A stretch of DNA of 5,144 nt from Deltaproteobacteria bacterium (GCA_023250585.1 JAHFAK010000057.1:1-5144), one strand, 5' to 3'; numbered from the stretch's first letter, positions 1-5,089 are shown. Notes: generated by a model not told the origin, from the letters alone. Made by a program: numbers and translations.

Positions 1-1149
1 TCGGAGTGTACAATATTCTTTCCCATCAATATATACAGGAGCAGTTGGTGTTTCTTTAATGCCGGGGAGGCTGATTCCGATGTCTGAGTATTTGCTTTCC
101 TCTGGGCCATTGACAACACAACCCATGACTGCAACTTTTAGTTTTTCAACCCCAGGATAAACTTTTTTCCATTCCTTAATTTTTTGAGCAATATGATCGG
201 TGACTTCGCGATCGAGTTTTACGAAATAATCGCTGTCAGTTCGACCACATCCAGGACAACTTGTAACTATTGGTTTAAAAAAACGAAAATTCATGTTTTG
301 TAGAAGCTGCGTACATACTTCAACTTCGCGTGCTCTTGAAATACCTGGTTCGGGAGTTAATGAAACACGAATCGTGTCGCCAATACCCTGTTGCAGAAGA
401 ATTGCAAGAGCTGCCGAGCTGGAGGCAATTCCTTTAATTCCATTTCCCGCCTCAGTTAATCCAAGATGCAGAATATAATCAGTTTTTTCTGCAAGCTTTT
501 GATATGCGCTCACCATATCTTGAATGTCTGACATTTTTACGCTGACAATGATTTTTTCTTTTGGTAATCCAAGACGGATTGCATATTCAGTGCTATGTAT
601 AGCACTTTCAATCATGGCATCGATGAGTACTTCTTTGAAATCTTTAGGATTTTTGAGCTCTGCGTTGGTGTCCATCATTTTGGTGAGTAGATCTTGATCT
701 AATGATCCCCAATTTACTCCAATACGTACTGGCTTATTATTTTTTATAGCAATTCGTATAATTGCCTCAAAATTATCATCGTGTTTTTTGCCTTTTCCGA
801 CATTTCCGGGATTTATCCGATATTTTGCCAGCGAGGCTGCGGCTTCAGGAGATTCAGAAAGTAATTTATGTCCATTATAATGGAAATCACCAATAATAGG
901 AGTCTTATACCCCTTTTGTTCAAGTTTTTCTATAATTTGTGGAACTGCTTCTGCTGCAGCTGAATCGTTAACGGTAATTCGAACAAGCTCCGATCCTGCA
1001 TCGGCAAGTTCAATGATTTGATTAACTGTTTCATCAACTCGAGCGGTTACGGTATTCGTCATTGACTGAACAACAATCGGATGATCGCTGCCAATGGGAA
1101 CATCTCCAATATAACATGAAGGGGTCTTTCGACGTTTGATTTCAAACAT
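1..1149 (-). CDS. ispG: 4-hydroxy-3-methylbut-2-enyl diphosphate synthase (IspG/GcpE), 3' end outside the window
   Basis: IspG reductively converts the cyclic diphosphate MEcPP to HMBPP, the penultimate step of the cytosolic MEP isoprenoid pathway, using a [4Fe-4S] cluster. The frame stays open for 383 codons to base 1, so only the last few tens of residues should be missing. Seen in translation: the N-terminal TIM-barrel region with [14 protein letters not shown] (about residues 20-33), [41 protein letters not shown], and the cluster domain with SCPGCGR (Cys298, Cys301) and MGCVVNGP (Cys344). These align one residue off the three cysteine ligands and the glutamate ligand known from Thermus IspG, which makes Glu351 the fourth ligand here. 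The usual glycine before that glutamate is Glu350. It is the short bacterial form without the plant-type insert. There is no Shine-Dalgarno before the ATG, and a promoter at 1156-1185 would start the mRNA at or next to the ATG. The identification is very secure. Confidence 0.97.
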
Positions 1150-1186: not shown

Positions 1187-1202
1187 TGTTCCACGTAGAA
1201 CA
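1187..1202. other. parS-like centromere site 1
   Basis: TGTTCCACGTAGAACA, an inverted repeat with one imperfect pair (C at 1192 against A at 1197). Flanking bases extend the dyad to 1184-1205. It differs from the commonly cited parS TGTTTCACGTGAAACA at positions 5, 11 and 12; the changes at 5 and 12 compensate each other. It lies between the stop of the 58-residue gene (8 bases away) and the ispG promoter, one base from its -35 box. On the plus strand it is followed by a T-rich run, so a terminator role is an alternative, but no plus-strand gene precedes it. The recurrence of the same 16-mer three more times favours a binding site. Confidence 0.75.
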
Positions 1203-1210
1203 TTTTGTTT

Positions 1211-1387
1211 TTAGAACCCCTCTTCTTTGAGTTTGCGGCTTATGCGTTTTGCTTTGTTAGACATGAATCGATTGAGAAAAAGAAGACGTTCTTCAAGATA
1301 CTCGAGCTTTTTTCGGAGAGAAAGCGCAGCAAATTGCTTCATTCGTTCAATATCAAATTCTTCTGTTTGTTTTCTTTGATTATTCAT
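1211..1387 (-). CDS. Small charged helical protein, probable partner of the upstream nucleotidyltransferase
   Basis: 58 residues starting MNNQRKQTEEFD. An in-frame ATG at 1450 would give 79 residues, but the extra part lies wholly within the upstream gene in another frame and reads unlike a protein N-terminus, so the ATG at 1387 is preferred. That ATG overlaps the last 8 bases of the nucleotidyltransferase gene, an arrangement that suggests translational coupling. The protein is basic and rich in Lys, Arg, Glu and Leu, predicted to be almost entirely helical. Its core, ALSLRKKLEYLEERLLFLNRF (residues about 21-41), resembles the 'L..KL.WLEE...F' pattern I associate with small proteins encoded beside AbiEii/DUF6036-type nucleotidyltransferases. 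By inference it is the second member of a toxin-antitoxin-like pair. Which member would be toxin cannot be told from sequence. Confidence 0.72.
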   Translation of the reverse strand: MNNQRKQTEEFDIERMKQFAALSLRKKLEYLEERLLFLNRFMSNKAKRISRKLKEEGF

Positions 1388-1877
1388 CTTTAAATTGTGT
1401 AAGCCTTTTGAGTGCACGAATATCCAGTAAATCTCGTTCCCGTCCGGCATGTTTTTTTAAAGCTATGAGATCAGGAATGCTTGCAATTCGTAAGATCAAT
1501 TCTCGGTCTTTCATGATGACACTATTTGTATAGAGAATATCGAATTCAATAATCTGTTCAATCATAACAACATCGATATCTTCTATTGGATTATGGGGAT
1601 TATATACCGAGAATACCTTCATTCCTTTTTCGTACATCCATTCTTTTCGTTTTTGTGGATCAGCAAATTCTTGAAGTTTCACGGGCATTCGTGGAAGCAT
1701 CTTGAGCTTTTCTACTGCATGAATAAATTTTTGAATTTCATCGTTAGTCATCGCAATAACAATATCGAGATCACCGGTATGACGATCATATCCATGAAGA
1801 TTTACCGCTATGCCTCCAATAATGACATATTTAAGGCCGAGTTCATTAAATGTTCGAAATATATTTTCGTAAAGCAT
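1380..1877 (-). CDS. AbiEii/DUF6036-like nucleotidyltransferase, putative toxin-antitoxin component
   Basis: 165 residues of the DNA polymerase beta-like nucleotidyltransferase fold. Motif I is IIGGIAVNLHGYDRHTGDLDI (residues 19-39), with Gly21-Gly22, Arg32-x-Thr34 and the metal-binding pair Asp36-x-Asp38. A third acidic residue is likely Asp102 in EDIDVVMI. Near the C-terminus, DLIALKKHAGRERDLLDI (136-153) matches the K..a.R.RD..D motif typical of AbiEii and DUF6036 proteins. All catalytic positions look intact, so the enzyme is probably active. Relatives transfer nucleotides to RNA or protein targets in type IV toxin-antitoxin or abortive-infection systems; the substrate here is unknown. 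It is the first gene of a two-gene operon, with an 8-base overlap with the next gene. No Shine-Dalgarno precedes the ATG, and a promoter at 1889-1917 leaves only a few bases of leader. A stand-alone housekeeping role is possible but less typical. Confidence 0.85.
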   Translation of the reverse strand: MLYENIFRTFNELGLKYVIIGGIAVNLHGYDRHTGDLDIVIAMTNDEIQKFIHAVEKLKMLPRMPVKLQEFADPQKRKEWMYEKGMKVFSVYNPHNPIEDIDVVMIEQIIEFDILYTNSVIMKDRELILRIASIPDLIALKKHAGRERDLLDIRALKRLTQFKDE

Positions 1878-1888
1878 AGAGTTAATAA

Positions 1889-1917
1889 ATAATAAGTGAT
1901 AGCTTCTGAGAAGTAAA
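1889..1917 (-). promoter_or_regulatory. Predicted promoter of the nucleotidyltransferase operon
   Basis: On the minus strand TTTACT (1917-1912) is followed after exactly 17 bases by TATTAT (1894-1889), a good -35/-10 pair. The start of transcription would be near 1882, about five bases before the ATG at 1877, so the message would be nearly leaderless, in keeping with the absent ribosome binding site. The perfect parS-like palindrome at 1946-1961 is 28 bases upstream of the -35 box. In such AT-rich DNA chance matches are common, so this is a moderate call. Confidence 0.4.
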
Positions 1918-1945
1918 GACGTTTAGTAGATGAATACTTAAAGAA

Positions 1946-1961
1946 TGTTCCACGTGGAACA
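1946..1961. other. parS-like centromere site 2 (perfect palindrome)
   Basis: TGTTCCACGTGGAACA is a perfect 16-bp palindrome, extended by flanking A and T to 18 bp. It keeps the CACGTG core of parS and differs from TGTTTCACGTGAAACA only at the two compensating positions 5 and 12. This form is close to sites I recall for pseudomonad and Caulobacter ParB. It lies two bases beyond the stop codon of the exported protein gene and upstream of the nucleotidyltransferase promoter. Together with site 3 it shares an 18-bp stretch that includes the preceding TTAAAGA. As minus-strand RNA it could fold into a stem with an ACGT loop followed by CUUU, so a weak terminator role for the exported protein gene cannot be excluded. 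Confidence 0.85.
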
Positions 1962-1963
1962 TT

Positions 1964-3529
1964 TTATAGTTCTTCAGGTTCTCCAATGGGTTTTGGCTCA
2001 TATTCTTTTGGTTCGTTTATTATCTCTGCATTTTCAGTTTGGATAGCAGGGTGCGCGTTTTGAATAGGTACATAGCCACGACCTTTGCCTAATCTATGAT
2101 TCCAGTCTTTGATCGTATCTGAAGTTAATTCCCTGAGAGCATCTTCATTTGTATCGCATTCAAAGAGAGTTAGAAATTTGTTTTGTTTTTCTCCATTTTC
2201 ATTGGTTGAAGGAAATGTTAGATTGATTTCTGGAGAGAAGCTATACTGACCATATTTTTGTAAACATTCAGGTATATCAATATTGTTTGCCCTACACATT
2301 GCTTCCACTAACGGATTGAGAACACCTTTATCAATACCAGGATGATCGAGAAAGAGTGAAACGTCATTAGCAGAAAGGATTTGGTTAAAGAATTCTTTTT
2401 GTTTATTTTTTGTTTTTTCTAATTGATCATCAATATTTTTTATATATTCATGAACCGATTCTGTTTCACCACCCTGATTAATAATATTTTTAATCCAAGT
2501 GTCGTTTTCTTTTTTCCAGTATTCTTTAAACCGTTTGGTATTAAGGATAAGTTCTAATGAAAGAGTATTGTCGGTATAGTTTTTACAGAGGCGCTTAAAA
2601 ATGTCTCCGTATTTTTCTTTAAATGAGTTAATTTCCTGCTTAAGTCTTTCTTTAATTTCATCAGAAACGTAAATATCGTATAAATCTTCGGGAGTTTTGA
2701 CAAGCAATTCCTCCCCTGTTTTTTTGTTTTTTATCAAAATAAAAATGTACTTATCCTGAAGGAGTACTTCCCCTTCTTCAGATTCAAATACTAAGCGAGC
2801 TTCTGTATGAGGAAGCCTGTTTAAATCTAGAAGTACTTGGTTATACGTTCTTTTATCAGTTTTACTTTTTGGATCATAGAGAGTATCTAAAATTTCCATT
2901 TTAAAGACTGCCTCAAGACGAAGATATTCCCATACAACCTGAAAATGGTTTGGATTAAGAATTAAGGGTATACGAATAGTATTTCCCGTAAACCCATTTT
3001 TATCATAAAGAATTTCGAGAGCTACCTTCTTAATAAAGTTTTCAATGGTCTTATCAATAGAAAATTGATGAGTTATATACACTGTTGTTGGGTTATAGAA
3101 AAACGGAAGTAGGAATACAGGATCATTTTCAGAATTTTTAATAATTCTATTCGCTATTTCTTCCGATGTTTCGCTTATGTGTATATCAGTTACAGCCTTT
3201 TTTATCTTATTACAGTCTCCTGCTTTTACTAGACCTATTTCTTTGGATTGATGAATATTTTTTAGCTTTATTGTAGATTTTTCATGGAGCTTTTCCATAT
3301 TTTTCCATACATCATACGTAATATTTGGAAAGCCATCGTTTCTATTCTTAATAATCTGTACTAATTGTCTATATTTTTTAAGGTTCTCAGGCGTGCAAAA
3401 TGTATCATATTCTTGAGATGCTATGCAAAAAGTTTCAGTTTTTTTCTGTAGGTTATTTTCGGCAGAGACTAACAAAGAGGATGATAAAACTATAGAGCTT
3501 ATTAAAATTATTACGTTATTTGTTCTCAT
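1964..3529 (-). CDS. Exported protein of unknown function, larger member of a divergent paralogous pair
   Basis: 521 residues from the chosen ATG. The longest open frame begins at 3655, but the ATG at 3529 has an AGAGGA ribosome binding site 10 bases upstream and opens directly into a signal peptide: MRTNN, then a hydrophobic run (residues 6-21), then VSA with probable cleavage after Ala23. The extra 42 codons would bury the signal peptide and include a parS-like site. I recognise no family. It is clearly paralogous to the protein at 3708-5048: TPENLKKYRQLV (46-57), ITYD (70-73), WEYLRLEAVFKMEILD (200-215), EGEVLLQDKY (252-261), KYGDIFKRLCKN (306-317) and a C-terminal domain around FSPEINLTFP (431-440) ending in LFEC. 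Cys315 and Cys458 are conserved in the paralogue and could form a disulfide in the periplasm or outside the cell. Its middle carries roughly 45 more residues than the paralogue, and it ends in a Glu/Pro-rich tail. Confidence refers to the gene and its export, not to a function. Confidence 0.88.
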   Translation of the reverse strand: MRTNNVIILISSIVLSSSLLVSAENNLQKKTETFCIASQEYDTFCTPENLKKYRQLVQIIKNRNDGFPNITYDVWKNMEKLHEKSTIKLKNIHQSKEIGLVKAGDCNKIKKAVTDIHISETSEEIANRIIKNSENDPVFLLPFFYNPTTVYITHQFSIDKTIENFIKKVALEILYDKNGFTGNTIRIPLILNPNHFQVVWEYLRLEAVFKMEILDTLYDPKSKTDKRTYNQVLLDLNRLPHTEARLVFESEEGEVLLQDKYIFILIKNKKTGEELLVKTPEDLYDIYVSDEIKERLKQEINSFKEKYGDIFKRLCKNYTDNTLSLELILNTKRFKEYWKKENDTWIKNIINQGGETESVHEYIKNIDDQLEKTKNKQKEFFNQILSANDVSLFLDHPGIDKGVLNPLVEAMCRANNIDIPECLQKYGQYSFSPEINLTFPSTNENGEKQNKFLTLFECDTNEDALRELTSDTIKDWNHRLGKGRGYVPIQNAHPAIQTENAEIINEPKEYEPKPIGEPEEL

Positions 3530-3539
3530 GATTACATAA

Positions 3540-3545
3540 TCCTCT
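3540..3545 (-). promoter_or_regulatory. Ribosome binding site that decides the exported protein's start
   Basis: AGAGGA on the minus strand, 10 bases before the ATG at 3529. It is the clearest Shine-Dalgarno in the window and, with the signal peptide that follows, supports this start over the longer reading from 3655. Further upstream a weak TTGCAG (3578-3573) and TTATTT/TATTTT (about 3548-3554) with 18-19 bases between them might be the promoter, but this pair is too poor to list alone. Confidence 0.6.
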
Positions 3546-3602
3546 GTAAAATAAGGTTCTTGTGAAAAAATACTGCAAAAACGGTTCCATTTTTTTAAAG
3601 AA

Positions 3603-3618
3603 TGTTCCACGTAGAACA
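3603..3618. other. parS-like centromere site 3
   Basis: TGTTCCACGTAGAACA, identical in sequence and orientation to site 1, flanked by A and T. It lies in the 178-bp region between the two diverging exported-protein genes, 73 bases before the minus-strand start and 89 bases before the plus-strand start. It is upstream of both genes, so a terminator role is excluded here. It shares an 18-bp stretch with site 2 (TTAAAGAATGTTCCACGT), which may reflect duplication of the site with its flank. Confidence 0.78.
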
Positions 3619-3645
3619 TTGGAGAGAAAGCCCTCATCGTTACTT

Positions 3646-3690
3646 TTGACATCATTTTATACTTGCAATTTTATAAAACTTGTGTACTAT
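3646..3690 (+). promoter_or_regulatory. Predicted promoter region of the plus-strand exported protein gene
   Basis: A perfect -35 box TTGACA (3646-3651) is followed by possible -10 boxes TTTTAT (3669-3674, 17-base gap) or TATAAA (3672-3677, 20-base gap). A second pair, TTGCAA (3663-3668) and TACTAT (3685-3690) with 16 bases between, would start transcription near 3697, close to the ATG at 3708. Which is used cannot be decided here. The parS-like site 3 ends 27 bases upstream of the first -35 box. Confidence 0.4.
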
Positions 3691-3707
3691 CATAAATGGG
3701 TTAAAAA

Positions 3708-5048
3708 ATGAGACAAGCCGTTAAAAAGTTATTATTTTTAATTGGTTGTATACAAATTTCATTCGTTGCCGCTCAAGTAAACATCTCACCGACAATAGAT
3801 ACTTTTTCGTTTTCACCTGAAAATCTCATAAAATATAGAAAACTCGTATGGGACTATGAAAAGAAAAACAGTAAGATTACTTATGATAGCACTCGTATTG
3901 AAGAAATAGTAAAAAAATTGAATCCAAAACTCAAAATAGATCATGATCTATTTACTAAAAATGAAAGAACAAAATTCTATTTGATATCTGTTCCGAAGGT
4001 CATAGCTGAGTTATTTAAGAGTGATAGTATTAAATCACATAACTATCCTGCCGTTTTAACCGATGTGTATGTTCATCATAAAAGTATAAAAAGTAAAGAA
4101 AGCGACTATACTCAAGAAATGAAAATTGAAAAACCATTCGATGCTTATGGCTATGGTAAAGACATCATTTATGTGCCTTTACTTATTGATGAAAGAGATT
4201 TTGTTGATACGGAAGGAAAGATTAAAGAAAAGATAGAGGAAATTCCCTATACCAAAGCTCTTATTCAAACAGCTTGGGATTATATAAAACTCGAATCATG
4301 TTTTATGAATGAAGTATTTGACTTCGTTTTTGATAATAAAAAGAATATTACCTACTGGCAGGTTCTTAACACATTGGCAAAAGAAGATGATAGTGAAGCA
4401 AGTTTAGTTATGTATTCGAAAAAAGGGGAAGTGTTCATTAGAGACAGATACTTGATTAAAATAAAAGATAAAAAAACAGGAATAGAAACCGAGATTTCAA
4501 GTCCAGAAGAACTTGAAACTTTTAGATTGCAAAAGATACGGCAATATCAAGAAAAATTAGTTCAAGAACTTAACACTGCCTATGGTGATATTTTCCAAAG
4601 ATTTTGTCAGAATGCTTCTTCGTTTACCCGAGAAAGCATTGATTCTATTGAGGGAGTTAAAGAACTTATCTCATCGTTATCTCAAAATAATTATAGCAAT
4701 GCTTTAAAATATTTTGTATTTGAGATACAGATGCAAAAAATTATAGCCAGTGAATCTTCGGCATTTAACGACGATGATCATGAGGAGATAGAAGAATTTG
4801 AGTATTCATTTGAGTATACATTTGCTCCTAAGGTCATAGTATATATACCCTTTATTAATGAGCAAGGAATAATAGGACAAAAATGGTTTGAATTTTTCTC
4901 CTGTGAACCCAAGCAAGAGAATCTCGAAAAACTCACTAACGAGGATATGGCTGAAATTAATAACTTAAGTAATCAAAAAAAGTCAGAGTTTATTCATCTT
5001 CTCAAATATGAAAGCTCGGGAAAATCGAGAAGCTATACACCTCAATAA
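3708..5048 (+). CDS. Exported protein of unknown function, smaller member of a divergent paralogous pair
   Basis: 446 residues. The start MRQAVKKLLFLIGC opens a signal peptide: basic n-region to Lys7, hydrophobic core 8-20, and VAA with probable cleavage after Ala22. Only a weak GGG at 3698-3700 serves as ribosome binding site. No known family is recognised. Features shared with the protein at 1964-3529 are SPENLIKYRKLV (36-47), ITYD (57-60), WDYIKLESCFMNEVFD (190-205), EVFIRDRY (241-248), a KDKKTG loop, AYGDIFQRFCQN (291-302) and a C-terminal FAPKVIVYIPFINE (372-385) ending in FFSCE. Cys300 and Cys399 match the conserved cysteines of the paralogue; Cys198 is unique to this copy. An acidic stretch DDDHEEIEEFE (355-365) precedes the last domain. 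The conserved order suggests an N-terminal helical segment, a central domain and a C-terminal beta-rich domain. The divergence of the two sequences implies an old duplication. The cell location is periplasm, envelope or host-facing; no function can be assigned. Confidence 0.88.
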   Translation: MRQAVKKLLFLIGCIQISFVAAQVNISPTIDTFSFSPENLIKYRKLVWDYEKKNSKITYDSTRIEEIVKKLNPKLKIDHDLFTKNERTKFYLISVPKVIAELFKSDSIKSHNYPAVLTDVYVHHKSIKSKESDYTQEMKIEKPFDAYGYGKDIIYVPLLIDERDFVDTEGKIKEKIEEIPYTKALIQTAWDYIKLESCFMNEVFDFVFDNKKNITYWQVLNTLAKEDDSEASLVMYSKKGEVFIRDRYLIKIKDKKTGIETEISSPEELETFRLQKIRQYQEKLVQELNTAYGDIFQRFCQNASSFTRESIDSIEGVKELISSLSQNNYSNALKYFVFEIQMQKIIASESSAFNDDDHEEIEEFEYSFEYTFAPKVIVYIPFINEQGIIGQKWFEFFSCEPKQENLEKLTNEDMAEINNLSNQKKSEFIHLLKYESSGKSRSYTPQ

Positions 5049-5073
5049 TAGTTACATTTCCTATCAATATAAA

Positions 5074-5089
5074 TGTTCTACGTGGAACA
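5074..5089. other. parS-like centromere site 4
   Basis: TGTTCTACGTGGAACA is the exact reverse complement of sites 1 and 3, flanked by AA-A and T-TT so that the dyad spans 5071-5092. It lies in the 45-bp gap between the stop of the plus-strand exported protein gene and the stop of the truncated minus-strand reading frame, four bases from the latter. In this convergent position a bidirectional terminator hairpin is a real alternative (stem AAATGTTC over a TACGTG loop), though there is no strong U tract. Confidence 0.75.

Follow-up and report, generated by a model that had tools for sequence, protein, structure and literature searches.

The window analyzed here, a stretch of 5,144 bases, is the beginning of the 13,952-bp contig C121 of a deltaproteobacterial draft genome that comprises 2.24 Mb in 164 contigs. 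The left end of the window is occupied by the ispG (gcpE) gene (1..1149, minus strand; Pfam GcpE, E=1.4e-107), the 3' end of which is cut by the contig end and continues on contig C98. On the same strand, ispG is accompanied by a small ORF of 60 amino acids (1211..1393) and an adjacent nucleotidyltransferase-like gene (DUF6036 / AbiEii-like; 1380..1877); these two overlap and might represent a toxin-antitoxin-like pair. The remainder of the window encodes two predicted secreted proteins of a small paralogous family, one on the minus strand (1964..3529) and the other on the plus strand (3708..5048). A third paralog, interrupted by a stop or a frameshift, is located immediately beyond the window, at positions 5251-6172 of C121, and this three-member family was found nowhere else in the genome. 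As shown below, the secreted protein genes are interleaved with a series of palindromic sites; we consider these genes and the nucleotidyltransferase-like gene to be neighbors only, and the 60-aa ORF likewise is not itself part of the site array.

A pattern search of the window with the 16-bp motif TGTTCYACGTRGAACA yielded exactly four matches, at 1187-1202, 1946-1961, 3603-3618 and 5074-5089, in full agreement with the positions given in the initial annotation of this DNA, and no further match even when up to 3 mismatches were allowed. The claim that four such 16-mers within 5 kb exceed chance also holds, with 0.06 matches expected in the window from dinucleotide-preserving shuffles and none of the 200 shuffles reaching four. 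The only perfect palindrome among the four sites, TGTTCCACGTGGAACA, lies between the nucleotidyltransferase-like gene and the first secreted protein gene (1946..1961). The other three share a single one-base variant with one changed half: TGTTCCACGTAGAACA is found in the interval separating the ispG start from the 3' end of the 60-aa ORF (1187..1202) and again in the gap between the two divergent paralogous genes (3603..3618), and the same sequence on the other strand, TGTTCTACGTGGAACA, directly follows the stop codon of the second secreted protein gene (5074..5089). All four sites are located outside of genes, as originally noted, although the intergenic share of the window is about 8% rather than the 7% given there. 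The site at 3603 falls inside a mechanically called ORF (1964-3655) only when this ORF is read from the upstream ATG; given the signal-peptide-like MRTNNVIILISSIVLSSSLLVSA at the ATG at 3529, the start of this minus-strand gene is most likely at 3529, 74 bp downstream of the site.

In the whole 2.24-Mb genome, the exact TGTTCYACGTRGAACA motif is present in six copies, five on C121 (at 1187, 1946, 3603, 5074 and 6243) and a single one at position 371 of C98, and a control search with the reversed pattern yielded no matches at the same, exact stringency. The changed half TGTTCTAC is present in three of the six sites, and every exact copy is preceded by A and followed by T, so that the perfect sites are in effect 18-bp palindromes. 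The 281 bases at the start of C98 align, in reverse orientation and at 95% identity, to the 281 bases at the start of the window; this overlap lies within one ispG gene, and C98 opens with the 3' end of ispG that C121 lacks. We infer that C98 is the left neighbor of C121 and that the overlap is 95% rather than 100% identical owing to strain variation in the assembly. After joining, the C98 site, 5 bp past the ispG stop codon, is located about 90-100 bp to the left of window position 1. Thus, far from being scattered evenly over the genome, all six copies fall within a single region of about 6.4 kb (more precisely, about 6.36 kb, with spacings of roughly 1.3, 0.8, 1.7, 1.5 and 1.2 kb); six positions drawn at random from a 2.24-Mb genome would cluster this tightly with a probability of the order of 1e-12. 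Another, seventh copy that deviates from the motif at a single base, TGTTCCATGTGGAACA, is located 1.1 kb further out, at C98:1478, and matches with two mismatches are scattered and largely background-like, with 16 in the whole genome compared to 8 for the reversed control. The flanks of the sites are unrelated beyond about 18-30 bp, that is, the flanking sequences have diverged around the retained 16-mers, indicating that the sites are conserved while the surrounding DNA changes.

Two other sequence features were detected in the joined region. A 110-bp intergenic repeat with 79% identity between its copies is present on C98 (locus L009, 417-526), where it adjoins the palindromic site, and on C121 (locus L008, 7969-8081), and could be a mobile or structured repeat. 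In addition, two different lon-like protease genes flank the cluster of sites, one at 14043-16487 of C98 and the other at 9157-11574 of C121.

The perfect palindrome is not merely similar to the bacterial centromere site parS, as was initially proposed, but is identical to sequences proven to be parS elsewhere. The same 16-mer TGTTCCACGTGGAACA is parS2 and parS3 of Pseudomonas aeruginosa (PMC4368675), the Bdellovibrio bacteriovorus parS used in vitro (PMC10547168) and the listed consensus for P. putida, and differs by one base from TGTTCCACGTGGAACG of Myxococcus xanthus (PMC7022226). P. aeruginosa resembles the genome studied here also in having several clustered, partly intergenic copies (parS1-4) and a single chromosomal ParAB pair (PMC4368675, PMC7022226); however, the lineages are unrelated, and the present genome has at least six sites spaced by about 0.8-1.7 kb, three of them with the TGTTCTAC half. 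For M. xanthus, which shares with Bdellovibrio this form of parS, hereafter C-type, 22 sites are listed (PMC7022226). The parS of the Bacillus subtilis/Caulobacter type, TGTTTCACGTGAAACA (hereafter T-type), has the same palindromic architecture and is served by a ParB with R173 and G201 but has T instead of C at position 5 and A instead of G at position 12.

A survey of 386 genomes detected the C-type palindrome in 52 and the T-type palindrome in 145, with almost no matches for the reversed patterns; the two types were found together in only three genomes, compared to about 19.5 expected under independence. Among 37 other, unrelated genomes with parS-type motifs, 19 have a copy of the motif within 10 kb of the region encoding the helix-turn-helix (HTH) domain of ParB, and in six of these 19, the exact C-type sequence is present. 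In one surveyed genome (G048), exact TGTTCCACGTGGAACA sites number 13 and are distributed among many contigs, with only one next to parB; this set represents either unusually dispersed parS sites or another use of the motif.

The genome contains a single parB gene (HTH_ParB, E=2.1e-33), located directly downstream of parA on the minus strand of contig C162 (locus L007:1131-2042) and followed by what we take, from the translation, to be a bactofilin-like gene. In the PDB, the top-scoring matches of this protein are ParB/Spo0J proteins, followed at lower scores by Noc proteins; its best matches among the contigs of other genomes show 36-43% identity and come from scattered phyla. Noc belongs to the same protein superfamily and recognizes a site of the same length, 16 bp, namely NBS, TATTTCCCGGGAAATA. 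Positions 173, 179, 184 and 201 separate parS readers from Noc, with R/G versus Q/R at 173/201, and NBS differs from parS at bases 1 and 6 (Jalal et al., PMC7383237). The ParB of this genome has R173, T179, N184 and G201, so that, by this rule, it is a parS reader, and the sites in the window carry the parS-type bases at both discriminating positions (G1 and A6 of the half-site). Neither the sites nor the protein fit a Noc system, which would combine an NBS-type site with Q173, K179, K184 and R201. Judging from its sequence, the protein encoded beside ParA is a chromosomal-type ParB with a parS-type DNA-binding domain.

The proposal that the cluster is a ParB-binding centromere region is thus supported by the exact sites, their clustering, the presence of the ParA-ParB pair and the known parS sequence. 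Two observations that, according to the initial annotation, would refute this proposal, an even scatter of the motif and a genome devoid of ParB, are both contradicted by the data. We consider it almost certain that the four palindromes in the window, as well as two or more others immediately beyond it, are the parS sites, that is, the centromere, of the chromosome of this bacterium. It is very improbable that, instead, the sites serve a local transcription regulator as operators controlling the adjoining genes. Such a role would fit the intergenic location of every site and the placement of two of them ahead of genes (1187 preceding the start of ispG and 3603 between divergent genes). However, the sites at 5074 and at C98:371 directly follow stop codons, the neighboring genes do not form one pathway, none of the listed ORFs of the contig was recognized as a regulator gene, and the sequence is an exact known parS that is also found close to parB in unrelated genomes. 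Nevertheless, the sites might have a local regulatory side effect, given that P. aeruginosa ParB bound at parS3 and parS4 represses neighboring genes (PMC7022226). Even less probable is a family of terminators or dispersed repeats duplicated along with the tandem paralogous genes, to which the interleaving of the sites with the three secreted protein paralogs (1964-3529, 3708-5048 and the broken copy at about 5251-6172) and the short T runs after some copies might seem to point: there are only six copies in 2.24 Mb, two of these are at ispG, away from the paralogs, the flanks show no likeness beyond about 18-30 bp, and a loop-less palindrome makes a poor terminator. The suggestion that the sites might belong to a plasmid or secondary replicon whose sequence was assembled along with that of the chromosome can be practically dismissed despite the short contig (14 kb) and the fragmented draft, considering that the genome has only one ParB and that core genes are located on or adjoin the contig and surround the sites, namely, ispG, lon (two copies, one on C98), mnmG, a phosphoketolase/transketolase-like gene and a gene that presumably encodes an RF-1-type peptide-release domain.

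A location of these parS sites close to oriC, which the initial annotation had raised as a possibility, is likely but unproven, with dnaA and parB lying on separate contigs of the 164-contig draft. The start of the mnmG gene, which was frequently found near parS in the genome survey (for example, in G034, G058, G053, G019 and G051), is 6 kb away from the last site. Around the cluster, we also recognized, from reading of the translations, genes that we take to be lon, an RF-1-type peptide-release gene and genes for CBS/HlyC-type membrane proteins. In G001, the one genome from this class in the comparison, a single T-type parS immediately follows dnaN-gyrB-gyrA, a region that is normally the origin. 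In the genome analyzed here, dnaA-dnaN-recF and parAB are located on contigs other than those with the sites (C133 and C162, respectively), and a search of these two contigs for full parS yielded only single half-sites. Across the 30 kb of joined sequence, only a weak GC skew without a clear switch was observed.

The cluster is a new example of the well-known ParABS centromere, ordinary in kind. In such systems, ParB dimers load at parS and, with CTP bound, form closed clamps that slide along the DNA; ParA moves the resulting platform, and SMC may load on it. By analogy, each 16-bp palindrome would be read by the HTH of a dimer of the single ParB, which would then bind CTP, close to a clamp and slide over a few kilobases of flanking DNA. 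With six sites spaced by 0.8-1.7 kb, the ParB complex could cover the entire 6-7 kb region, forming one continuous ParB-coated platform of about 7 kb or more that ParA would move to opposite cell halves and that may also serve for the loading of SMC. The genes within this platform might be partly silenced, as are the neighbors of parS3 and parS4 in P. aeruginosa (PMC7022226).

The near exclusion of C-type and T-type parS in the survey is accompanied by a difference in ParB at residue 204 (Caulobacter numbering), the last residue of the GHAR/GHAK motif, in an alignment of short HTH stretches. The closest solved ParB structure, 7bnk, which we take to be a Myxococcus-type ParB, has arginine at this position, whereas the ParB of the present genome has lysine. 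Among the first 26 genomes with one site type only, lysine 204 was found in six of the nine with C-type sites and in none of the 17 with T-type sites; in a second set, picked by site type only, the corresponding counts were 21 of 35 and 0 of 30 (Fisher p = 5.6e-8). With both sets pooled and the present genome included (about 90 genomes), lysine 204 is present in 28 of 45 C-type and 0 of 47 T-type genomes. In a scan of approximately 370 column-residue combinations, position 204 came first, several orders of magnitude ahead of the others, in the second set as well as in the pooled one. Arginine 204 occurs with both site types, so that the rule is one-sided: lysine implies C, but C does not imply lysine. 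Other residues were considered as the cause of the C/T difference and rejected: 179 and 184 vary without pattern, and an acidic residue at 172, hinted at by a few C-type proteins, is also found, as D or E, with T-type sites.

Position 204 contacts DNA in the Caulobacter structure (PMC7383237), and in Helicobacter pylori ParB, Lys190, which our alignment places at position 204, is listed among the residues that bind parS specifically (PMC11229316), the site in this case being the hybrid TGTTCCACGTGAAACA. The present genome (K204, C-type) and its sole compared relative from the same class, G001 (R204, T-type), differ in both traits together. In a tree of the short domain built without column 204, 17 changes are needed; on this tree, which has few well-supported branches, site and residue change alike in about 11 of 17 non-overlapping pairs and in opposite directions in none. 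A tree-based sign test confined to the supported branches retains two pairs only and, with so few well-supported branches, shared ancestry may underlie the association.

Residue 204 of ParB thus appears, from comparison of sequences, to go with the fifth base of parS, which is an association and not a proof of contact or specificity. We lean slightly toward the stronger view that residue 204 reads base 5 of parS, with arginine accepting T or C and lysine requiring C on at least one half-site, and that lineages switch the residue and the base together, the present genome being one such switch relative to its class. No report of the 204/site association was found in the open-access literature, and the novelty of this observation is uncertain.

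The findings described here, obtained from sequence alone, locate the centromere in a poorly sampled bacterium that branches deeply, and indicate that parS has two common flavors, the C-type being one of them, that almost exclude each other. Beyond annotation, the residue-site association is the only part of specialist interest. The ParB/Noc specificity code explains half-site positions 1 and 6 (PMC7383237); if the association of residue 204 with the site type is confirmed, this code would reach position 4 of the half-site (the fifth base of the 16-mer), which would help predict the parS type from the ParB sequence and design orthogonal ParB-parS labels.
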